The position numbers and the translations under genes were made by a program. Under the pieces are notes generated by a model that searched no databases, had not been told where the DNA came from, and saw only the letters and a list, made by a program, of their open reading frames with translations. DNA of 64,000 bases, taken from Stieleria maiorica. GTDB taxonomy: Bacteria; Planctomycetota; Planctomycetia; Pirellulales; Pirellulaceae. Positions 14,229 through 57,350 of this stretch are shown here, in pieces; position 1 is the first letter of the stretch, and every line of letters starts with the position of its first letter. The DNA is taken from contig NZ_CP036264.1 of the NCBI RefSeq assembly GCF_008035925.1, positions 6,977,641 to 7,041,640 on the forward strand. The letters run 5' to 3'.

Positions 14229-14388
14229 GTAGCGGAAGCCGCCAACGGCTTGTCGATTTAATCAGCCGTTTGGCGCGAGCCTACGGGCGCCAGGGTGTTT
14301 TCTTGGTATTGGAGGCCCGTACGCTCGCGCGAAACGGCTGATCCCACGTGTGATCGGAATAGATCAACGGGCCGATGGCGAGTTCCGC
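14229..14388. repeat. Nested palindromic element, copy 1 (AGCCGTTTCGCGCGAG core, minus orientation)
   Basis: Fills much of the 309-bp gap before cinA. Outer inverted ends (GTAGCGGAA at 14229; GGCGAGTTCCGC at the right) enclose a long imperfect palindrome whose arms contain CAGCCGTTTGGCGCGAG and CTCGCGCGAAACGGCTG around a spacer with TTTTCTTGGT. Related cores are at about 51318-51405 and 57245-57328. The stretch 14389-14513 holds nothing recognised. Confidence 0.85.
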
Positions 14389-24944: not shown

Positions 24945-26354
24945 ATGACCAAACGGACCAATCGCCGTCATTTCCTCGGTCGTACCGCCGCCGCCGGCGC
25001 GGTAGGAGTCGGCTACTGGACGGGAACCTCGCCTGTTCTGAAGGCTCAAGAATCAGCCCTGCAGGGGCTTAGTGCGGCGTGCATCGGTGTCGGCGGAAAA
25101 GGCGGCAGCGACACCAGCCACATCGCCGAAAACGGTGTCAACATCGCGGCCCTCTGCGACATCGACGGCGACACCGTCAACAAGAAGGCTCGCGAGTTTC
25201 CCGATGCCGAAAAGTTCAGCGACTTTCGTGAAATGCTGGACAAGGTCGGCGACAAAATCGACATCGTGACCGTCAGCACGCCCGACCACACCCACGCCGC
25301 CGCGGCCGTGCGTGCGATGCGGATGAAAAAGCACGTCTATTGCCAAAAACCGCTGACCTGGTCGATCAGCGAAGCCCGTTTGATGCGTGAAACCGCCGAG
25401 CAAATGGGGGTGGTGACGCAAATGGGCAACCAAGGCACCAGCGAAGACGGGCTGCGGACGGCCGTCGAAGTGATCCAAAGCGGCGCGATCGGCGATGTCA
25501 GCGAAGTGCACGTTTGGTCCAACCGACCGGTGTGGCCCCAAGGCCAAGGGCGTCCCGAGGGCGAAGACCCGGTCCCGGAAAACCTGAACTGGGACGCCTG
25601 GATCGGCCCGGCTCCGATGCGTCCCTTCAAAAAGGGCGTCTACCACTCGTTCAACTGGCGCGGCTGGGTCGATTTCGGAACCGGCGCCCTGGGCGACATG
25701 GCCTGTCACACCACCAACATGCCCGTGATGGCACTGAAATTGTGGGACCCCGTCGCCGTCACCGCGATCAAAAATCCCGGGATCTTCGAAGGTGAAACCT
25801 ATCCGGCCAGCAGCGCCCTGATGTTCGAATTTCCCGAACGCGAAGGTCTGCCGGCCTGCGATTTCTTTTGGTACGACGGCGGCGAATTGCCCCGCGAAGA
25901 CTTGATCAGCAAGCTTCCCAGACGATTCCAAGAACGCATCGCCAAGCAGCGCGAAGGCGGCAGCAAAACCAGCGGCGCGTTGGTCGTCGGCAGCAAAGGC
26001 ATGGTGTTCTCGGCAAACGACTACGGAGCCCAGTTTGATATCCTGCCCCAAGATGATTTCAAAGACTTCAAGTACCCCGACCCGTGGCTGCCGCGGATCC
26101 CGTTCAAGGCCGGTAACGACCAACGCCAGAAATGGGAATTCGTCAGCACCATCAAGGGTGAGTACGAGCCCGGCACGATGTCCAACTTCGGTTACGCCGG
26201 ACGTCTGACCGAAACGATCCTGGTCGGCAACCTAGCCCTGCGCGCCGGTGAAGGCAAACGGATCGAGTGGGATGCGAAGAACCTGAAGAGCACCAACGTG
26301 TCCGAGGTCAATCAGTTCGTCGCACGCGAATATCGCAGCGGCTGGGAACTGTAG
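24945..26354 (+). CDS. Gfo/Idh/MocA family oxidoreductase, Tat-exported
   Basis: 469 residues from ATG 24945 with AAGGA upstream. A twin-arginine signal (NRRHFLGRTAAAGAVGVGYW) directs export of the folded protein with its NAD(P) cofactor. The Rossmann motif is degenerate but present (SAACIGVGGKGGSDTSHI), followed by AALCDIDGD, STPDHTHAAAAV and YCQKPLTWSISEARLM, in which the lysine of the CxKP motif is the usual catalytic residue. The C-terminal domain includes WIGPAPMRPF and GWVDFGTGALGDMACHT. Probably acts on a sugar or polyol in the periplasm; the substrate is unknown. It is followed by a tandem repeat array. Confidence 0.9.
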   Translation: MTKRTNRRHFLGRTAAAGAVGVGYWTGTSPVLKAQESALQGLSAACIGVGGKGGSDTSHIAENGVNIAALCDIDGDTVNKKAREFPDAEKFSDFREMLDKVGDKIDIVTVSTPDHTHAAAAVRAMRMKKHVYCQKPLTWSISEARLMRETAEQMGVVTQMGNQGTSEDGLRTAVEVIQSGAIGDVSEVHVWSNRPVWPQGQGRPEGEDPVPENLNWDAWIGPAPMRPFKKGVYHSFNWRGWVDFGTGALGDMACHTTNMPVMALKLWDPVAVTAIKNPGIFEGETYPASSALMFEFPEREGLPACDFFWYDGGELPREDLISKLPRRFQERIAKQREGGSKTSGALVVGSKGMVFSANDYGAQFDILPQDDFKDFKYPDPWLPRIPFKAGNDQRQKWEFVSTIKGEYEPGTMSNFGYAGRLTETILVGNLALRAGEGKRIEWDAKNLKSTNVSEVNQFVAREYRSGWEL

Positions 26355-26370
26355 CCGCAGCTTTCGGGCC

Positions 26371-26986
26371 CTCGTTCCAAGGCTCCGCCTTGGAACGCGC
26401 TGCCGGTGTGGCTCCTGCCACACGCGGCTCGACAACGTGAGGCGGAGCCTCCGGGAAATTGCGTCCCCAGGCGGTAGCCTGGGCACGAGGGATAAACTGC
26501 CCCTCCCGCCCTCGTTCCAAGGCTCCGCCTTGGAACGCGCTGCCGGTGTGGCTCCTGCCACACGCGGCTCGGCAACGTGAGGCGGAGCCTCCGGGAAATT
26601 GCGTCCCCAGGCGGGAGCCTGGGAACGAGGGATAAACTGCCCATCCTGCCCTCGTTCCAAGGCTCCGCCTTGGAACGCGCTGCCGTTGTGGCTCCTGCCA
26701 CACGCGGCTCGGCAACGTGAGGCGGAGCCTCCGGGAAATTTCGTCCCCAGGCGGGAGCCTGGGAACGAGGGATAAACTGCCCCTCCCCCCCTCGTTCCAA
26801 GGCTCCGCCTTGGAACGCGCTGCCGTTGTGGCTCCTGCCACACGCGGCTCGACAACGTGAGGCGGAGCCTCCGGGAAATTGCGTCCCCAGGCGGGAGCCT
26901 GGGAACGAGGGATAAACTGCCGCATCCCGCCCTCGTTCCAAGGCTCCGCCTTGGAACGCGCTGCCGGTGTGGCTCCTGCCACACAC
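26371..26986. repeat. 140-bp tandem repeat array 1 (4 full + 1 partial copies)
   Basis: Copies start at 26371, 26511, 26651, 26791 and 26932 (period 140, last 141); the fifth is cut after the GTGTGG hairpin. Each unit contains hairpins AAGGCTCCGCCTT, GTGTGGCTCCTGCCACAC, GAGGCGGAGCCTC and CCCAGGCGGGAGCCTGGG, with inverted ends CCCTCGTTCC/GGAACGAGGG. It lies between two convergent genes. Because 140 is not a multiple of three, all three minus frames stay open; those frames are artefacts. Confidence 0.97.
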
Positions 26987-27046
26987 CGGAGGCACGGCCC
27001 GGGAACCAGGCAGGCGTGATCTTGGTGGAACCCACCAAGCGTCTCC

Positions 27047-27466
27047 CTAACGGAACCGCGAGTCTCGCACCGCGCGGGCCGCGGAAACGCCGTTGCGGGC
27101 GACAATCTCTTTCAGCGTCGGAACGTTGACGCGGCGTTTGGCGGCCTCAACCCGCATCGCGCGTTCGTAGGCCGGCAGCGGAAAATACGGACTCTTGCGA
27201 CGCGCATAGCGTTCCAACGCCAACACGACTCGCTTTTCAAGCTTGTTCTGATCGACCAGCTTGACGATCTCGCGGATGTACTGACGCTGGTCGTCGGTGG
27301 TCGCACGTAGACGGCTGATCAAATAATCATCCAGGGCCGCTCCTTGTGTCGGAACCACGACCGTCGAGTTCGTGATGCCGGTTTGAGCGGCGGCGCTGCC
27401 GGCAAGCCCGGCGGCGACCAGCGATAGCGTCATCGCGACAGCGGTCATTAATGCAGACAGTTTCAT
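27047..27466 (-). CDS. Small exported protein of unknown function
   Basis: 139 residues. ATG at 27466 is chosen because it begins a clean signal peptide (MKLSALMTAVAMTLSLVAAGLAGSAAAQ); the frame runs 16 codons further to a GTG. The mature part is basic and helical: DDYLISRLRATTDDQRQYIREIV, VVLALERYARRKSPYFPLPAYERAMR, ending in RAVRDSRFR. No family recognised. It converges on array 1. Confidence 0.68.
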   Translation of the reverse strand: MKLSALMTAVAMTLSLVAAGLAGSAAAQTGITNSTVVVPTQGAALDDYLISRLRATTDDQRQYIREIVKLVDQNKLEKRVVLALERYARRKSPYFPLPAYERAMRVEAAKRRVNVPTLKEIVARNGVSAARAVRDSRFR

Positions 27467-32010: not shown

Positions 32011-32086
32011 GTTGGTGTCTAGCCTTTAGGCGATTCCCGGTCGCTGCGACGCGGCGACCGTGGGCGGCGAAAGCCCGCACACCAAC
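32011..32086. repeat. GTTGGTGT-ended hairpin element, copy 1
   Basis: Begins GTTGGTGTCTAGCCTTTAG and ends ACACCAAC, with an inner stem GGTCGC/GCGACC. It lies between the two Lol-type genes of one unit. The second copy is inside the LptE-like gene at 38312. Confidence 0.8.
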
Positions 32087-35765: not shown

Positions 35766-36101
35766 ATGTCACGCAAAGAAAAGATCCTGGCGATGCTGCA
35801 AGACGATCCTTCGGACACGTTCTTGCGTTACAGCTTGGCCATGGAATTGCGGAGCGAAGGAGATCACGACAGCAGCCTGGGAAAACTGGGCGAACTGATG
35901 CGTGACACTCCCCCTTACGTTCCGGCCTTCTTCATGGCCGCCCAACAGCTGGTCGATTTGGGCCGCATCGACGAGGCCCGGACGCGCTTGCGCGATGGCA
36001 TCGACCAGGCTCGTCATCAGGGCGATGGACATGCCGCGGCGGAAATGAGCGAATTGCTGGCAACGCTCGGCGACTTGGGCGAAGACGACGACGAACTGTA
36101 A
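35766..36101 (+). CDS. Small TPR-like protein
   Basis: 111 residues, all helical. The segment TFLRYSLAMELRSEGDHDSSLGKLGELMRDTPPYVPAFFMAAQQLVDLGRIDEARTRL-type pattern gives two TPR motifs (conserved positions: Y/L at 4 and 8, A at 20, P near 32), followed by an acidic tail ending DDDEL. Likely a cytoplasmic adaptor. It starts 2 bases after the GNAT stop and its TAA is immediately followed by the recO ATG, so it is cotranslated with both. Confidence 0.75.
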   Translation: MSRKEKILAMLQDDPSDTFLRYSLAMELRSEGDHDSSLGKLGELMRDTPPYVPAFFMAAQQLVDLGRIDEARTRLRDGIDQARHQGDGHAAAEMSELLATLGDLGEDDDEL

Positions 36102-36860
36102 ATGGCCGCCGAGCAGACCACGGCGGTCGTTCTGCGGACGATCCCGTTCAGCGAAACCAGCTTGGTCGTCACGCTGTTGACACGCGACTTCGGCCAAGTC
36201 GCGGCGTTGGCCAAGGGGGCTCGCCGTCCCAAGAGTTCCTTCGAAGGTTCGCTTGACCTGCTGGCCGTCTGTCGTGTAGTGCTGATTCGGAAATCCTCCG
36301 ATGCGCTCGATCTGTTGACCGAGGCCAAGCTCCAGCGTCGTTTTCGCGGGGCGGAAAAGTCGTTGGATCGCGTTTATGCCGGATACTACATCGCCGAAAT
36401 GCTTCGACTGTTGACGGACAATCACGATCCCCATCCCGGGCTGTACGACCTGACGCTCGACGCGCTCGGGCAGATCGACGGCAAGGGAAATTCCGCCTTG
36501 GCACTGCTCGGCTTTGACACCTCGGCCCTGCGTTTGCTCGGTCATGCTCCGGCGACGCGCCGATGCGTTGATTGCGGCGGTCGCGTCGGGGATAGCCCGC
36601 GGATCGCGTTCGCACCGATCGCCGGCGGCGTCGTGTGTCGCGACTGTCGACCGCGCCAGCACAGCCTGTTGACGGTCAGCGGTGAAACCATCGATCACTT
36701 GGAACGATTGCTGGCCCCCCACACGCGACTGCCGATCGAGCTTCCCTCGTCGGTTTATCGGGAGATGCGAGGCCTGATCAACCGATACATCCAAGCAATC
36801 CTCGGCTCAATTCCGAAAATGCAACCTTACCTGCCCGCCCGGATGGAACCGGTGGAATGA
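36102..36860 (+). CDS. recO: DNA repair protein RecO
   Basis: 252 residues. RecO helps RecF/RecR load RecA at single-stranded gaps. The OB-fold N-terminus is clear: TTAVVLRTIPFSETSLVVTLLTRDFGQVAALAKGARRPKSS, then FEGSLDLLAVCRVVLI and the helical core RVYAGYYIAEMLRLLTDNHDPHPGLYDL. A zinc-ribbon of four Cys is kept (CVDCGG and VCRDC). The length is normal. Start immediately follows the preceding stop; the next gene overlaps its own stop by 4 bases (ATGA). Confidence 0.92.
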   Translation: MAAEQTTAVVLRTIPFSETSLVVTLLTRDFGQVAALAKGARRPKSSFEGSLDLLAVCRVVLIRKSSDALDLLTEAKLQRRFRGAEKSLDRVYAGYYIAEMLRLLTDNHDPHPGLYDLTLDALGQIDGKGNSALALLGFDTSALRLLGHAPATRRCVDCGGRVGDSPRIAFAPIAGGVVCRDCRPRQHSLLTVSGETIDHLERLLAPHTRLPIELPSSVYREMRGLINRYIQAILGSIPKMQPYLPARMEPVE

Positions 36861-38251
36861 AAAAGAATCATCAACAATTGGACCGCCCCGAACGTTTCGT
36901 CCGAGGCGTTTTGCGACCGTTCTTTGGGACATGCTTGTTGGCGGCCGTGGCCGGGTGCCAGAGTTTCGGCGGCGGGTCGACGACGCGCAGCTGGTTTCCC
37001 AAGCTGCCGTTTCGATCCGTGGCGACCAGCGAATCGGACACGCAACCACCGCCGCCGGTCCAATCGGAGGATCCGCCCCGCGTGGCGTCGGACTCCGTCA
37101 CCAACGCCGGCGGAAGCCTGGTCAGCGGTCTGCCCAGCACCAATCGATTGGTCGGCTATGTGACGGGTAAAAAACACGAAGACATCCCCAAAGCGAAGCA
37201 GCTGTACCGGCGCGGGGACGAACTTTTCAAACAGGCCGCCAGGGCTCCCAAAGCGACCCGCACCGGGATGTTCGCCGAGGCCGCCGAGTTGTTCGAACGG
37301 GCCTGCAAAGAGGCACCCGGTTCGGGATTGAACCAAGACGCGTTGTTCATGCAAGGTGAGTCGTTGTTCTTTGCCAATGATTTGAACGGCGCACGCGACG
37401 CCTTTGAAAAACTGCAAAAGGACTTCCCACGCAACCGACACGGCGACCGCGCCGCCGCACGACTGTTTTCGATCAGCAAGTATTGGATCGATGTCTCCAA
37501 GGCCGGCGACGATGCCTGGTACTCGCTCAATTTCTTTGACACCACACGTCCGCTACGCGATGCCGACGGCCATGCGATCCGGGTGTTGGACCAGATTCGA
37601 TACGACGATCCGACCGGCAAGCTGGCCGATGACGCGACCATGGCGGCCGCCGCCGAACACATTCGCAATGAACAGTACGAGAAAGCAGACGAGTTCTTGA
37701 CCGACCTTCGTGAAACGTTCACCGACAGCGACCACCTGTTCCTGGCACACTTGCTGGGGATTCGGTGCAAGCTGGAAATCTATGGCGGACCGGAGTACAG
37801 CGAACTGGTCTTGGACGAAGCCGACGAACTGGTCAAACAAACACGTCGCCGCTTCCCGAACGAATTGCGCGAAGAGAAATACAACCAGCTGCTCGCCCGG
37901 GCGGCCGCGGAAATCGCCTACCACAAAGCCGAGAAACTTGCGTTCCGAGCCAAGTATCGAGAACGCAAAAAAGAGTACGGCGCCGCGGCACAGCTGTATC
38001 GCAAGATCCTGCGTGACCACCCCACCACGCCGCAGGCCGATCGGGCTCGCGATGTCTTGGCACAGATCGACGATCTGCCGGCCACGCCGACACAGAATTT
38101 CGCCATTCGCGCCATCGCCAAAGCGTTTCCATCGTCCAAACGCTCCACGCCGCTGGTGACCGTCGACTCCGTGGAATCGACCGAGGAGACCTCCGAGGAA
38201 TCTCCGACGGACACCCCCAGCGAAACGACCGGCAAGAAGCTGCTCCGCTAA
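36857..38251 (+). CDS. BamD-like TPR lipoprotein
   Basis: 464 residues. Lipoprotein signal GTCLLAAVAGC (Cys 34), a Pro/Ser-rich linker to about 115, then TPR-like pairs used by BamD/YbgF proteins: YRRGDELFKQAA, FAEAAELFERACKEAPGSGLNQDALFMQGESLFFANDL, NGARDAFEKLQKDFPRNRHGDRA, and late ARDVLAQIDDLPA. BamD belongs to the outer-membrane protein assembly machine, and location beside an LptE-like gene fits an outer-membrane biogenesis cluster. It is much longer than Escherichia coli BamD (245), with a Ser/Glu/Thr-rich tail. Its ATG overlaps the recO stop. Confidence 0.72.
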   Translation: MKKNHQQLDRPERFVRGVLRPFFGTCLLAAVAGCQSFGGGSTTRSWFPKLPFRSVATSESDTQPPPPVQSEDPPRVASDSVTNAGGSLVSGLPSTNRLVGYVTGKKHEDIPKAKQLYRRGDELFKQAARAPKATRTGMFAEAAELFERACKEAPGSGLNQDALFMQGESLFFANDLNGARDAFEKLQKDFPRNRHGDRAAARLFSISKYWIDVSKAGDDAWYSLNFFDTTRPLRDADGHAIRVLDQIRYDDPTGKLADDATMAAAAEHIRNEQYEKADEFLTDLRETFTDSDHLFLAHLLGIRCKLEIYGGPEYSELVLDEADELVKQTRRRFPNELREEKYNQLLARAAAEIAYHKAEKLAFRAKYRERKKEYGAAAQLYRKILRDHPTTPQADRARDVLAQIDDLPATPTQNFAIRAIAKAFPSSKRSTPLVTVDSVESTEETSEESPTDTPSETTGKKLLR

Positions 38252-38265
38252 CAGGCCACCACGCG

Positions 38266-38949
38266 ATGGACGCTCAGTCGCCCCCCCAAACCGTGCACGC
38301 AATCAAGCGCCGTTGGTGTCTAGGCTTTAGCCGATTCTCCCGCAGCCGATTGCTCGGCTGCGGAGGGCGCCTAAAGGCTGAACACCAACGACTCGCCTGT
38401 CGAACACGCCTAAAGGCTGGACACCAACAGCTCCCAATCGTGCTCGGCACGCTGTTCGCAGTGCTCCTACTCAACGGCTGCGCCGCCTACCAATTCGGTT
38501 CGGCGGCACTTTACCCCAGCGGCATTCGCACCGTGCATATCCCCGTGGTCCGCAACGACACGTTCCGCCACGACCTGGGACCACAGTTGACCGACGCCCT
38601 GGTCAAAGAAGTCGAGCGGCGGACACCCTACAAAGTGGTCAGCAATCCGCACGCGGATTCCGTTTTGCGGTGTACCATCTCGGGGCAATCAAAAGTTGTA
38701 TTGACCGAGACCAGCAGCGACGACCCGCGTGCGCTCGACAGCGCGATCACGGTCGGAGCGACCTGGACCTCGCGCGACGGACGACGGTTGATGCAAAATA
38801 GTTTGGCAAGCGTTGACCAAGACAGCATCGGGTTCAGCCAAAGTGTTCGGTTTGTCCCCGAGGCCGGCCAGTCGATCGACACGGCCAACCAGGAAGCCAT
38901 CGACCGCCTGGCCCGACGGATCGTCTCGCAAATGGAATCCCGCTGGTAA
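38266..38949 (+). CDS. lptE: LptE-like lipoprotein with repeat element inserted in the signal peptide
   Basis: 227 residues. LptE plugs LptD in the outer membrane to place lipopolysaccharide. The mature protein starts at Cys 72 (LFAVLLLNGCAAYQFG); the family pattern follows: LYPSGIRTVHIPVVRNDTFRHDLGPQLTDALVKEVERRTPYKVV and an ending with QEAIDRLARRIVSQME. Residues 16-55 are coded by a 117-bp hairpin repeat (38312-38428). Without it the N-terminus would read MDAQSPPQTVHAIKR joined to QLPIVLGTLF, a normal lipoprotein signal. A GTG near codon 59 could bypass the insert but would give no charged n-region. Confidence 0.78.
   Translation: MDAQSPPQTVHAIKRRWCLGFSRFSRSRLLGCGGRLKAEHQRLACRTRLKAGHQQLPIVLGTLFAVLLLNGCAAYQFGSAALYPSGIRTVHIPVVRNDTFRHDLGPQLTDALVKEVERRTPYKVVSNPHADSVLRCTISGQSKVVLTETSSDDPRALDSAITVGATWTSRDGRRLMQNSLASVDQDSIGFSQSVRFVPEAGQSIDTANQEAIDRLARRIVSQMESRW
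38312..38428. repeat. GTTGGTGT-ended hairpin element, copy 2, inside a gene
   Basis: 117 bp. Outer stem GTTGGTGTCTAGGCTTTAG with CTAAAGGCTGAACACCAAC; inner stem CCGCAGCCGA/TCGGCTGCGG; then a second copy of the right arm (CGCCTAAAGGCTGGACACC). Multiple of three, in frame with the LptE-like gene. Confidence 0.92.
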
Positions 38950-38970
38950 CATCACGGGGAGTATCGAAGC

Positions 38971-39834
38971 GTGCCTGAGAACGAAGCCCGGCCTGATAAG
39001 CGGTGGGACATCGGCAAACGCGTGCTGACGTTTGAAACCCGCCCGCTGGTGATGGGCATCTTGAACGTCACGCCGGACAGTTTTTCCGACGGCGGACGGC
39101 ACAATGATCCGAGTGCCGCAATCGAACTGGCGCTAGCGATGCAAGCCGACGGCGCCGACATCATTGACATCGGTGGCGAGAGCACGCGGCCTTACAGTGA
39201 CCCGGTCGCCGCGGTCGAAGAAATTGATCGCGTTTTGCCGGTCATTCAAGGCTTGGCCGGGCGGCTGTCGATTCCGATCAGCATCGACACCAGCAAAGCC
39301 GTCGTGGCAAGAGCGGCGATCGAGGCCGGCGCGGAGATCATCAATGATGTGACCGGACTGGAAGGCGATCCGGCGATGCCGCAGCTTGCCGTCGACGCAG
39401 AGGTCGGTGTCTGTGTGATGCACATGAAGGGCACTCCTCAAACGATGCAAGATGACCCGACGTACGACAACGTGGTCGAGGAAATCGTCGACTACCTGCA
39501 GCAACGTCTGGCGTTCTGCCTGGATGCCGGTTTGTCGAAAGAACGCATTTGCCTGGACCCGGGCATCGGATTCGGCAAAACACACGAGCACAACTTGCAG
39601 TTGCTGCGGAACACCTCCAGGTTCTGTGACTTGGATGCCCCGATCTTGATCGGTCACTCACGAAAAGGCTTCATCGGCAAGCTGCTCGGCGACAAGACCG
39701 CCGATCGAACCGCCGCGACGATCGGCGTGTCGCTGGCCGTCGCCGCCGCCGGGGCACACGTCATCCGCGTCCATGACGTCCGCCCGACCGTCGATGCGCT
39801 GAAACTGTTTCGGGCCTGCGGCGGGATCCGCTGA
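38971..39834 (+). CDS. folP: Dihydropteroate synthase
   Basis: 287 residues, full length. Joins p-aminobenzoate to hydroxymethyl-dihydropterin pyrophosphate in folate synthesis; target of sulfonamides. Motifs: PLVMGILNVTPDSFSDGG, DIIDIGGESTRP, ISIDTSKAVVA, EIINDVTGL, CLDPGIGFGKTHEHN, LIGHSRKGFIG and the final IRVHDVRPTVDALKL. The start is GTG with GGGGAG 9 bases upstream. It follows the LptE-like gene by 21 bp and ends at a tandem repeat array; the last bases with the stop (GCTGATCC) reappear at the first junction of that array. Confidence 0.95.
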   Translation: MPENEARPDKRWDIGKRVLTFETRPLVMGILNVTPDSFSDGGRHNDPSAAIELALAMQADGADIIDIGGESTRPYSDPVAAVEEIDRVLPVIQGLAGRLSIPISIDTSKAVVARAAIEAGAEIINDVTGLEGDPAMPQLAVDAEVGVCVMHMKGTPQTMQDDPTYDNVVEEIVDYLQQRLAFCLDAGLSKERICLDPGIGFGKTHEHNLQLLRNTSRFCDLDAPILIGHSRKGFIGKLLGDKTADRTAATIGVSLAVAAAGAHVIRVHDVRPTVDALKLFRACGGIR

Positions 39835-39837
39835 TCC

Positions 39838-40528
39838 TCTCGCACACCTCGTTCCCAGGCTCCCGCCTGGGGACGTAATTTCCCGGAGGCTCCGCCTCGC
39901 GTTGCCGTGCCTCGTGTGGCAGGAGCCACACCGGCAGTGCATTCCAAGGCAGAGCCTTGGAACGAGGGTGCTGATCCCCTCGCACACCTCGTTCCGAGGC
40001 TCCCGCCTGGGGACGTAATTTCCTGGAGGCTCCGCCTTGCGTTGCCGTGCCTCGTGTGGCAGGAGCCACACCGGCAGTGCATTCCAAGGCAGAGCCTTGG
40101 AATGAGGGTGGGGAATCCCTCGCACACCTCGTTCCCAGGCTCCCGCCTGGGGACGTAATTTCCTGGAGGCTCCGCCTCGCGTTGCCGTGCCTCGTGTGGC
40201 AGGAGCCACACCGGCAGTGCATTCCAAGGCAGAGCCTTGGAACGAGGGTGGGGAAACCCTCGCACACCTCGTTCCCAGGCTCGCGCCTGGGAACGCAATT
40301 TTCTGGAGGCTCCGCCTCGCGTTGCCGTGCCTTGTGTGGCAGGAGCCACACCGACAGTGCGTTCCAAGGCGGAGCCTTGGAACGAGGGTGGGGAAACCCT
40401 CGCACACCTCGTTCCGAGGCTCCCGCCTGGGGACGTAATTTCCTGGAGGCTCCGCCTCGCGTTGCCGTGCCTCGTGTGGCGGGAGCCACACTGTCAGTGC
40501 GTTCCAAGGCAGAGCCTTGGAACGAGGG
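39838..40528. repeat. 140-bp tandem repeat array 2 (5 copies, opposite orientation to array 1)
   Basis: Repeated CTCGTTCC landmarks at 39848, 39988, 40128, 40268 and 40408: exact period 140. The unit is the reverse complement of array 1's. Fills the 704-bp gap between convergent folP and gyrA. Hairpins GTGTGGCAGGAGCCACAC, GAGGCTCCGCCTC and TTCCAAGGCAGAGCCTTGGAA recur in each copy. Confidence 0.97.
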
Positions 40529-40538
40529 AACTCGCCGA

Positions 40539-43370
40539 TCAGACGCCGCCATCCCCGTCGGCTTCCGCGTCCGAACTCGAGGTGTCGTCGGCGGGCTGAC
40601 TCGGTTCGCCGGCATCGGCCACGACCGCGGCGGATTCCGGTGGCGGTGCACCGGTGTCGATTTCACCGACACCCTCTTCCGCCTCTTCCTCGGGCGGAAT
40701 GCGGACGGCGGCAACCAGTGTGTCGCCGCCTTCGACGTTCATGATCCGCACGCCTTGCGTGTTGCGGCCGATCACGCTGATGTCCCGTGCGGCGATCCGC
40801 TGGATCTTGCCTTTGCCGGTCATCAGAAAGACTTCGTCGTTGTCGTCCACGCGTGCGATCGCGATGACCTTGCCGTTGCGGCTGCTGGTCTTGATGTCAC
40901 GAAGTCCCTTTCCGCCGCGCCGTTGCGTCCGGTAGCGGGCCGATGACGATCCGTTTCCGTTTTCACCCTCGGCATCGTCACCGCCTTCATCGGCGATCGC
41001 GTTGGGGCCGAACGGGGTGCGTTTGCCATAGCCGTTCTCGCAAACGGTCAACAGCGTCGCCTCGGGCTCGGCAACGACCATTCCGACCACAGTGTCATCA
41101 CCGACCAGCGAGATGCCTTTGACGCCGGAGGTGTTGCGTCCCATCGGCCGGGCATCGGATTCCTTGAACCGGATCGCCATGCCCGACGCGGTGACCAGGA
41201 TCACTTCGTCACCCGGGCCGATCACGTTGGCCGACACCAATTCGTCGCCCTCGCGCAACTTGATCGCGATGATCCCGCCTCGTTTGGGGCGACTGTATTG
41301 TTCCAACGGTGTCTTCTTGACCAGACCGCTGCGGGTGGCCATCACGACGTAAGCGCCTTCTTGATTGAAATCGCGGATGGCCAGGCACGAGGCGATCTTT
41401 TCGCCCTCTTCCAACGCCAGCAGGTTGACGATCGCGCGGCCCCTGGCATCGCGGGGCAACTGGGGCAGGTCATAGACCTTTTGCCACAGAACCTTTCCGG
41501 ACGTCGTCAGAAACAGCAGGTAGGCGTGCGTGCTGGCGACGAACAAATGCTCGATCGGGTCTGCGCCGTCGGTCTTGGCGCCCTTGAGCCCCTTGCCGCC
41601 GCGCCGCTGGGTGTTGTAAACGCTCGACGGCGTGCGTTTGATGTACCCTTCGTGGGTGATCGACACGACCATCGTTTCTTCGGTGATCAGATCTTCCAGA
41701 TCGATGTTGCCGAGTTCTTCGTGACTGATTTGGGTGCGACGTGGCGAACCGAATCGCCGCTTCATCTCCTCCAAGTCTTCCTTGATGATGCCATAGACCC
41801 GCGCCTGGCTGCCAAGGATGTCCAGATAGTCGGCGATCTCTTCGAGCAACTGCTTGTGCTCGTCGGTCAGCTTTTCCTGTTCCAAGTTGACCAGTTGTCC
41901 CAACCGCATCTTTAAGATTTCGTCGGTTTGGACGCTGGTCAGGGTGTAGGTATCCGATTCGCCGCGTTCGAGTTGGAACTGGCGGAAGCCTTCGTCGCCC
42001 AGGGCCCGCTGCATCATCGATGCCGGGCACTCGATGCCCATCAAACGTTGCTTGGCCTCCGGCTGCGTGCGGCTGGTGCGGATCGTTTGAATGATTTCGT
42101 CGATGTTGGCCAACGCCAGCAACAAGCCTTCGACGGTGTGTTTGCGGCGTCGCGCTTTGGCCAACAGGAACTGGGTCCGCCGCCGGATCACGGTGATGCG
42201 GTGCCGGATGAATTCCTGCAGCATCTCCTTGAGCGTCAACTCGCGCGGCTTGCCGTCGACGAGCGCCAAGAAGATCAACGAGATCGTGTCTTGCAGCGGC
42301 GAGAACTGGTACAGCTGGTTCAGGATGACGTCGGGATCTTCGTTGCGTTTCAGCTCGATCACCAAACGCACCGGTTCCTTCAAGTCCGACTCGTCGCGGA
42401 TTCCGGAGATCCCTTTGATGCGGTCGTTGTTGACCAGCCCGGCGATCCGTTCGACCACGCGGTCACGGTATTGCTGGTAGGGAATTTCCGACACGATGAT
42501 CCGGTGCCGGTTGCCCTTCATTTCTTCGATGCGACATTTGGCGCGAACGACGATCGTGCTGCGTCCGGTTTTGTAACCGCGACGGATGCCGGCGCGGCCG
42601 CAGATGATCCCGCCGGTGGGGAAGTCCGGGCCGGGGACGATTTCGCACAGCTCGTCGATCGTCGTGTCGGGTTCGTCGATCAGCTTGATGACCGCGTCAC
42701 AGATCTCGGTCGGGTTGTGCGGCGGGATGCTGGTGGCCATCCCGACGGCGATCCCGCCGGAGCCGTTGATCAGCAAGTTGGGGAACTTGCTGGGCAACAC
42801 CGTCGGTTCGGTGCGCGCCTCGTCATAGGTCGGGATGAAGTCGACGGTGTCCAGTTTCAGGTCATCAAGCATCGCCGCGGCGACCGCCGACAGACGCGCT
42901 TCGGTGTACCGCATCGCCGCCGGGGGCAGACCGGCGATCGATCCGAAGTTCCCCTGTTTGTCGATCAACAGCGAACGCATGTTCCATTCCTGGGCCATGC
43001 GAACCAGCGTCGGATAAATCACCGACTCGCCGTGGGGGTGGTAGTTGCCCGACGTGTCACCGGAGATCTTGGCGCATTTGACCCGCTTGCTGCCTGGGCC
43101 GAGGTTCAGGTCGTTCATCGCGACCAAGATCCGCCGCTGGCTGGGTTTCAGCCCGTCACGCACATCCGGCAGGGCGCGGCTGACGATCACGCTCATCGCG
43201 TACGTCAGGTAACTTTCGCGCAGCTCGTCCTCGATCGGCAGATCGATCATCCGCAGGGCGCCCTCGCCCCCTTTGCCCGAACCGCTGCCGGCACCCTCAC
43301 CTTGAGGGCCCGGTGGGTCGCCGGAGCCGTTCTCTTCGTCTTGGCCGTTCTCGTCGTTTTCGTCTGCCAC
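40539..43370 (-). CDS. gyrA: DNA gyrase subunit A
   Basis: 943 residues, GTG start with AGGA upstream. Breakage-rejoining subunit of gyrase, which supercoils DNA with GyrB. The winged-helix domain has the catalytic Tyr 155 in [10 protein letters not shown] and the quinolone-site segment [10 protein letters not shown] (Ser kept; Pro at the place of Asp 87 of Escherichia coli). The C-terminal pinwheel has the GyrA box QRRGGKG in [12 protein letters not shown] and a second identical box in [12 protein letters not shown], where most bacteria have a variant. Acidic low-complexity tails are added at both ends (first 38 and last 55 residues). gyrB is not in the window. Confidence 0.97.
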
Positions 43371-45092: not shown

Positions 45093-45109
45093 GCTTGGCA
45101 ACGCCAAGC
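45093..45109. terminator. Hairpin after the Nudix gene
   Basis: Perfect 7-bp stem GCTTGGC/GCCAAGC with loop AAC, 48 bases after the stop. No T tract. Confidence 0.5.
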
Positions 45110-45110
45110 G

Positions 45111-45178
45111 AACGTAGCTACGCTCGCCAGAGCGTGGAACAGTCCGAGGGTCCACCTTCTGGCGAAGGTAGCTACGTT
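45111..45178. repeat. GTAGCTAC-ended hairpin element, copy B
   Basis: Two 27-base arms, beginning AACGTAGCTACGCTCGCC and ending GGCGAAGGTAGCTACGTT, with a 14-base spacer. Lies between convergent genes, immediately before the DUF3500 stop. Confidence 0.92.
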
Positions 45179-45189
45179 TCAACGGCGGG

Positions 45190-51174: not shown

Positions 51175-51296
51175 CGCGACAGGCTACGTGCCTGCCCCGC
51201 GACTCGTCAAGCATGCGTGGGGATCCACGGCGAGGTGGCCGCGCCGGCGATTCCTCTTTCTTTCCCACAGACGCCCCTGTCCCGCTCGTCGACCGG

Positions 51297-51446
51297 CCTG
51301 TTGGTTGAATCCGATCACACACGTGATCAGCCGTTTCGCGCGAGCGTACGGGCCTGCGACACCAAGAAAACGTACCGGCGCCCGTAGGCTCGCGCCATCC
51401 GGCTGATTCAATCAACCAGCCGCTTACGGGGCTGTCGATTGAATCG
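51297..51446. repeat. Nested palindromic element, copy 2 (AGCCGTTTCGCGCGAG core)
   Basis: Core arms ATCAGCCGTTTCGCGCGAG (about 51318) and CTCGCGCCATCCGGCTGAT (about 51405), spacer with CCAAGAAAAC as in copy 1. It shares a GGCTGTCGATT-type outer sequence with the hairpin that follows. The gap 51175-51554 has no gene. Confidence 0.85.
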
Positions 51447-57166: not shown

Positions 57167-57350
57167 GGATAGGCTTCCAGCCTGTCAATTCACGTGAGCG
57201 TTCCAGATGCGATGGCTAGTTGAATTGATCTGGTCACACGAGGGATCAGCCGTTTCGCGCGAGCGTACGGACACCCGGCATACAGAATTGCTGACCGTCG
57301 CCCGTAGGCTCGCGCCATACGGCTAATTCAGTCAACAATCCGTCGACGAT
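57167..57350. repeat. Repeat cluster before metY
   Basis: A GATAGGCTTCCAGCCTGTCA piece at 57171 is followed from about 57218 by nested palindromic element copy 3: arms ATCAGCCGTTTCGCGCGAG (about 57245) and CTCGCGCCATACGGCTAAT (about 57310). This fills most of the 302-bp gap 57162-57463. Confidence 0.85.

Follow-up and report, generated by a model that had tools for sequence, protein, structure and literature searches.

The open reading frame at 38266-38949 (plus strand, 227 codons) of the analysed 64,000-nucleotide stretch of the Stieleria maiorica genome, here called the window, raises the question of how a palindromic repeat came to lie within the signal peptide of an envelope gene and whether it is translated there. 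The C-terminal part of this ORF was identified as the LPS-assembly lipoprotein LptE (PF04390, 50.2 bits against a cut-off of 23), with no NCBIfam match, and the gene is single copy, one PF04390 match being found in each of the 14 genomes of the genus. Comparison with JC639, named in PMC12254169 as the type strain of Stieleria mannarensis, showed that LptE is 95% identical, with pN of 0.014 against pS of 0.307 in the mature part; judging from these substitutions lptE, regarded in the initial annotation as an essential-looking gene, is under strong purifying selection. The gene lies between a TPR-repeat gene (36857-38251, plus strand), whose stop is 14 nt before the lptE ATG, and a folP-like gene for a pterin-binding enzyme (38971-39834, plus strand). 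Two tandem-repeat arrays with a 140-nt period (39699-40538 and 26228-27061), about 90% alike, were also noted in inverted orientation about 13 kb apart; one of them sits between the folP-like and gyrA-like genes, and long mechanical ORFs cross both.

The leader of LptE begins with a native n-region (38266-38310, plus strand), MDAQSPPQTVHAIKR, homologous to MAAPTPPQPVPTAKR of JC639 and fast-evolving (pN 0.239 and pS 0.261 over the first 45 nt, pN/pS about 0.9), and it ends with the hydrophobic signal core and lipobox (38429-38481, plus strand; Cys codon 38479-38481). The repeat is located between the N-terminal KR segment and this core. It had been described as one hairpin element of 117 bp inside the lptE ORF; a hairpin element is indeed present, at 38311-38428, and it is made up of a complete unit and a half unit. 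The full palindromic unit, of a family designated A, occupies 38311-38390 on the plus strand (80 nt, CGTTGGTGT...ACACCAACG, read as RWCLGFSRFSRSRLLGCGGRLKAEHQR); after a spacer of 16 nt comes the right half of another unit (38407-38428, plus strand, read as RLKAGHQ). In silico deletion of 38312-38428 kept the frame and left the leader MDAQSPPQTVHAIKRQLPIVLGTLFAVLLLNGC, so that joining the flanks restores a normal-looking lipoprotein signal, as had been proposed. RNA folding of the element region gave -65.2 kcal/mol, compared to -42.1 (sd 3.4) for shuffled sequences (z -6.8), and none of 200 shuffles folded as well.

Genome-wide searches confirmed that the element belongs to a repeat family. 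The 19-nt arm pattern, with at most one mismatch, had 147 plus 141 matches (288) in the 9.89-Mb genome, and the backwards-read control had 0 plus 0. The family copy reported at 32011 is real (32011-32086), and the open frame through it has a non-coding score. Within 80 fetched regions, 48 two-arm elements were found, some of them forming tandem arrays; 41 of these measured 75-77 nt from arm to arm (9, 21, and 11, respectively), the length was divisible by three in 12 of the 48, and 2-42% were open in a given frame. An Rfam scan of window positions 36000-41000 at the gathering threshold gave no match. Across the genus, the arm pattern had 191-682 matches in the six core genomes whose leaders hold family A or a remnant of it, 49 in G010, and 0-22 in the seven genomes without leader repeats, while the reversed control gave 0-1 per genome and strand (one match in G001 and one in G004).

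Family A copies also flank a transposase gene. The 210-aa Y1 protein encoded at L058:3087-3719 (minus strand) is bordered by two complete copies on one flank and, on the opposite flank, by three complete ones and a lone arm. It scored 75.6 bits with NCBIfam REP_Tyr_transpos, below the cut-off of 80, and 23.0 with Pfam Y1_Tnp (cut-off 23), and it matched the solved structure of TnpArep (PDB 4er8) with an E value of 0.0053. No family A copy was found within 1.5 kb of the other three Y1_Tnp matches of the genome; a single arm match with four mismatches was seen near one of them (L124), and for one of the three (L095) the distance to a copy is about 3 kb. The combination of a high-copy self-complementary repeat with copies flanking a RAYT-like Y1 gene is that of RAYT/TIRYT-associated palindromic repeats, and the arrangement of copies around this gene suggests that family A is probably mobilised by a Y1 transposase of that type. 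Among the 48 two-arm elements, GTAG was found near the left end of none and near the right end of two, and CGTC near the left end of none and the right end of one; lacking a GTAG tag, the element fits the TIR-associated class (PMC3733652) better than the GTAG REPs. No convincing target-site duplication was observed, 29 of the 48 elements lacking any flanking direct repeat of at least 2 nt and 12 having one of 4 nt, tandem copies included.

Analysis of lptE in the other genomes revealed that the site is occupied repeatedly. An empty site at the exact junction had been the expectation for relatives; the closest one, JC639, instead holds a copy of family B beside a remnant of the right end of family A, with 70 residues to the Cys. 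Repeat-bearing leaders were found in seven of the 14 genomes and measure 31-280 residues to the Cys, and the remaining seven, in which no repeat was recognised, measure 20-48. The window genome (G000), with family A plus the half unit, has 71 residues; G008 carries a partial A and palindrome C (53 residues), G009 carries A and C (58 residues), and G006 carries an A left-arm remnant, family D and C (64 residues). The leader of TBK1r (G004), composed of seven tandem in-frame 108-nt family A units and a degenerate C, reaches 280 residues, about ten times the usual length, with the working LptE part conserved; its units differ among themselves by pN of 0.034 and pS of 0.041. The 31 residues of G010 include a different short palindrome, present twice and read as KKGKGVFF. 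Family B has at least 42 matches in G000 and at least 43 in JC639 (G005), family D at least 48 in G006, and the 23-bp palindrome C, which supplies KKVSDTF in the leader, has 27 exact copies in G006, 24 in G008, three in G009, and none in G000 or G010. The leader repeats thus comprise four tested dispersed families and one palindrome of untallied copy number, that of G010, all of them in frame. In addition, the leader of a metagenome protein of 233 aa (P0002) reads RWCLGFSRSPVQVRRLKAAHQR, a second such unit, a partial arm and then LLILGGC, and it appears to be family A, read in the frame used by the window lptE. By-eye reading of fifteen further named lptE loci, a few of which have long leaders, recognised no repeat of families A to D.

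The use of the upstream start was examined against the reading that the element belongs to the 5' UTR, in which case translation would begin at the in-frame GTG downstream of it (38440-38442, plus strand), the upstream open frame would be accidental and the hairpin would act on the mRNA or its translation. This GTG is where the gene caller starts (P0001, 169 aa), the stable RNA fold is in keeping with such a role, and accidental open frames are also seen at other family A copies that are located immediately 5' of genes; 64 of 82 family A clusters are open in some frame, and copies outside genes often lie in accidental long open frames. An untranslated position has also been argued, in PMC3733652, for most N-terminal REPs of P. 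putida, C. koseri, and S. maltophilia. A start at the GTG would, however, yield a signal without K or R before the hydrophobic core, and in all seven repeat-bearing genomes any start that keeps K or R there must read through a repeat (in G010, the doubled palindrome). Starting 20 residues before the Cys would bypass A or D in G006, G009, and G004, though C would still be translated. In the leader of JC639, whose LptE is 95% identical, an ATG and a GTG, respectively 70 and 61 residues before the lipobox Cys and both upstream of the repeat, are the sole ATG, GTG or TTG codons, none occurring from the repeat to the lipobox, and the gene-caller protein of that strain (138 aa) begins inside the mature domain and has no lipobox. 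The lack of any start beyond the repeat in JC639 makes an upstream start, at ATG 38266 or at the in-frame GTG 38293-38295 (plus strand, 62 residues before the Cys), the better reading for the window gene.

The reading frame gave further support. In each of the 14 genomes, the first ATG that follows or overlaps the stop of the upstream gene is in phase with the lipobox Cys, with no stop codon in between. For a single leader, being open and in phase by chance is not rare: shuffle-based openness multiplied by one third for phase gave 0.063 in G000, 0.069 in G005, 0.107 in G008, 0.036 in G009, 0.050 in G006, and 0.176 in G010, that is 4-18% per genome, and openness alone of the TBK1r leader gave 0.0005, all these values being calculated against shuffles and not on the tree, and being non-independent since the genomes are related. 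The 5' UTR reading has to accommodate frame and openness in every genome, including the 280-codon leader of TBK1r, as well as the repeats flanked by conserved coding segments in the FHA-like gene described below, and we consider it distinctly unlikely. Judging from the compared sequences, the leader shows no constraint beyond the maintenance of an open frame in phase; as its amino acids are unconstrained, frame and openness alone argue for translation.

The history of the insertions could be simpler than their present variety. One family A insertion, instead of several independent ones, might have preceded the radiation of the core clade and been edited and overwritten by other repeats afterwards; this alternative concerns history only and is compatible with translation from the upstream start. 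The six core genomes do form one clade in the concatenated tree (100/100, with sub-clades at 99/98 and 99/99); only the core-clade support was used from this tree, in which repeat sequence makes up the upstream piece of G004, while among the downstream pieces those of G001 and G002 are not FolP and that of G010 is short. The LptE-only tree was little resolved (two of 19 branches starred). The A right-arm remnant in JC639 and the A left-arm remnant in G006 would also suit one ancestral event, but the frame in which A is read differs by subclade (RWCLG versus VGVQ), the flanks differ too, and the palindrome of G010 is unrelated, so that we hold a single insertion to be possible though somewhat doubtful. 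The proposal that lptE is decaying and that the insertion is a step towards its loss would account for a long and fast-evolving leader, but it is hardly credible for a gene with one match in every genome, a PF04390 score above cut-off and the low pN of the mature part given above.

The repeats were also found in frame in other genes. Of 82 sampled family A clusters, drawn from 100 exact arm matches listed up to 7.7 Mb out of the 288, two are in frame in genes according to codon score and orthologue comparison, namely lptE and a gene labelled here FHA-like (at about 2,733,039), which has no Pfam match; at least one further copy therefore contradicts the earlier view of an otherwise intergenic family. 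A strict codon-score criterion retained lptE alone among 80 clusters (two clusters had no locus), and the FHA-like gene was added by a looser pass over the 82. The codon score is a rough one, for which 24 window ORFs served as training set and four window genes as calibration set, the two sets overlapping. Apart from two ambiguous cases (L095 and L166), the remaining long open frames through family A copies were taken to be either fortuitous or 5' leaders preceding a later ATG where their sequences were inspected, and were assessed by score alone otherwise.

In the FHA-like gene (L071:2426-4081, minus strand; L145, L170, L172, L173), a linker between conserved coding segments holds different in-frame repeats by species: family A in G000 and G005, palindrome C twice in G006 and G008, a degenerate C in G004, and C with another dispersed repeat (at least 40 matches) in G009, while none was recognised by eye in G010. 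In a solute-binding/ligand-channel gene (PF00497, SBP_bac_3; L159:436-1710, minus strand, L189), the signal peptide of G000 is followed by family B, and a composite of two other repeats (36 and five further matches in G005) is present at the corresponding place in JC639; the linkers of G004, G006, G008, G009, G007, and G012 are short, with no insert seen. An ATG directly follows the repeat in G000, where translation might start beyond the repeat, without the signal peptide, and the FHA-like gene is consequently the cleaner case of a repeat amid coding segments. In-frame insertion with the conserved gene intact, as in the palindromic elements of Rickettsia, was thus found in lptE, the FHA-like gene, and the SBP_bac_3 gene. 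All three of these gene-internal acceptors, compared across relatives, carry a different repeat in some relative; as they were chosen for holding a repeat, this is a regularity to test and not a rate.

Surveys of the other families gave one clear in-gene case of family B in G000 (L159) among 20 places checked of at least 42 matches. For palindrome C in G006, 24 of the 27 copies, in 20 regions, were surveyed. Judged on open frame and codon score, four genes together hold at least five of these copies (lptE, the FHA-like gene with two, an Ig/dockerin protein and one C-terminus), lptE and the FHA-like gene being those compared with orthologues. The G006 Ig-like/dockerin protein (L141:3-3023, minus strand) contains the 8-residue C palindrome KKVSDTFL in frame. 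Other occurrences were recorded. A possible second signal peptide (L166:1264-2952) has a leader with an A-arm-like remnant and family B, internal ATGs being present. At L095:2-3091 (minus strand), a family A copy within an open frame closely precedes the leader of a very large ORF resembling a surface protein. Within the window, a family B copy at 45104-45187 (genome 7022744-7022827) has one TGA in the compared frame, and another dispersed repeat occurs at 51294-51429, 57214-57342, and 14239-14374, the 136-nt arms at 14239 and 51294 being 83% complementary.

Taken together, these results suggest that dispersed repeats enter dispensable segments in frame, in this case the lptE n-region, are translated from the upstream start and are removed at maturation, a reading to which we assign a probability of about 0.78. 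A family A copy, probably moved by a RAYT/TIRYT-type Y1 transposase, would have landed in frame in the signal n-region, and selection on the single-copy LptE would have purged insertions that were out of frame or carried a stop. In-frame insertions would have survived because the n-region tolerates changes of sequence and length and because the whole leader is lost before the lipobox Cys. Ribosomes would most likely initiate at ATG 38266 (or GTG 38293), reading the insert as 39 residues, and lipoprotein signal peptidase would then cut off the leader with the insert in it. Removal of an n-region peptide by this peptidase follows from established lipoprotein biology, and it would explain why the insert is tolerated. 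The same tolerant site would have been reused in related species by the four tested dispersed families and the fifth short palindrome.

A bolder extension, which we regard as rather unlikely at present, is that the signal n-regions and inter-domain linkers of Stieleria are shared landing pads for many repeat families, that some repeats are now working parts and that mobile DNA may supply or tune an essential export signal. In six of the seven repeat-bearing lptE leaders (all except that of JC639), the repeat codes for the basic residues nearest the hydrophobic core, as in KKVSDTF. The lptE leaders in any case form a natural length series, from 20 to 280 residues, on one essential-looking lipoprotein, which makes the limits of signal n-regions and of lipoprotein processing directly testable. 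Repeat leaders also account for two shortened lptE database entries (169 and 138 aa), and the findings point to a route by which mobile repeats become protein sequence outside Rickettsia.

Proteins decorated with repeats are already known from the Rickettsia RPEs and the intragenic REPs; what is new here is the recurrent colonisation of one signal peptide by several families. In the open-licence literature, covered mainly by titles and the beginnings of abstracts, no publication was found to describe repeats inserted in frame in planctomycete genes or a signal peptide with several repeat families, which is weak evidence of absence. The RPEs, as described in PMC10969869, comprise several short palindromic families found in frame in unrelated genes, and they can be translated within the host protein. 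The Stieleria repeats share the first of these features, the comparison covering described features; they belong to a different phylum, one of their families flanks a Y1 transposase gene, and family A is mostly outside genes (two of 82 clusters clearly within them), whereas nearly half of the RPEs of R. conorii are located in ORFs according to the same text. In arrangement, family A resembles the TIRtrons/TIRYT elements, in which, according to PMC3733652, a RAYT-like transposase is flanked by repeats without a GTAG tag, some of them self-complementary, that form dimers and clusters genome-wide; family A similarly has no GTAG tag and flanks a RAYT-like Y1 gene. The same source describes REP-type repeats inside ORFs ("REP-decorated proteins"), with clusters coding for 43-82 residues, and it reports that the recB genes of two Xanthomonas species carry different REPs at roughly the same position, a precedent for reuse of a site. 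Many of the N-terminal cases are regarded there as untranslated, whereas the N-terminal case of lptE has comparative support for translation, and the site in Stieleria is a signal peptide used by four tested dispersed families.
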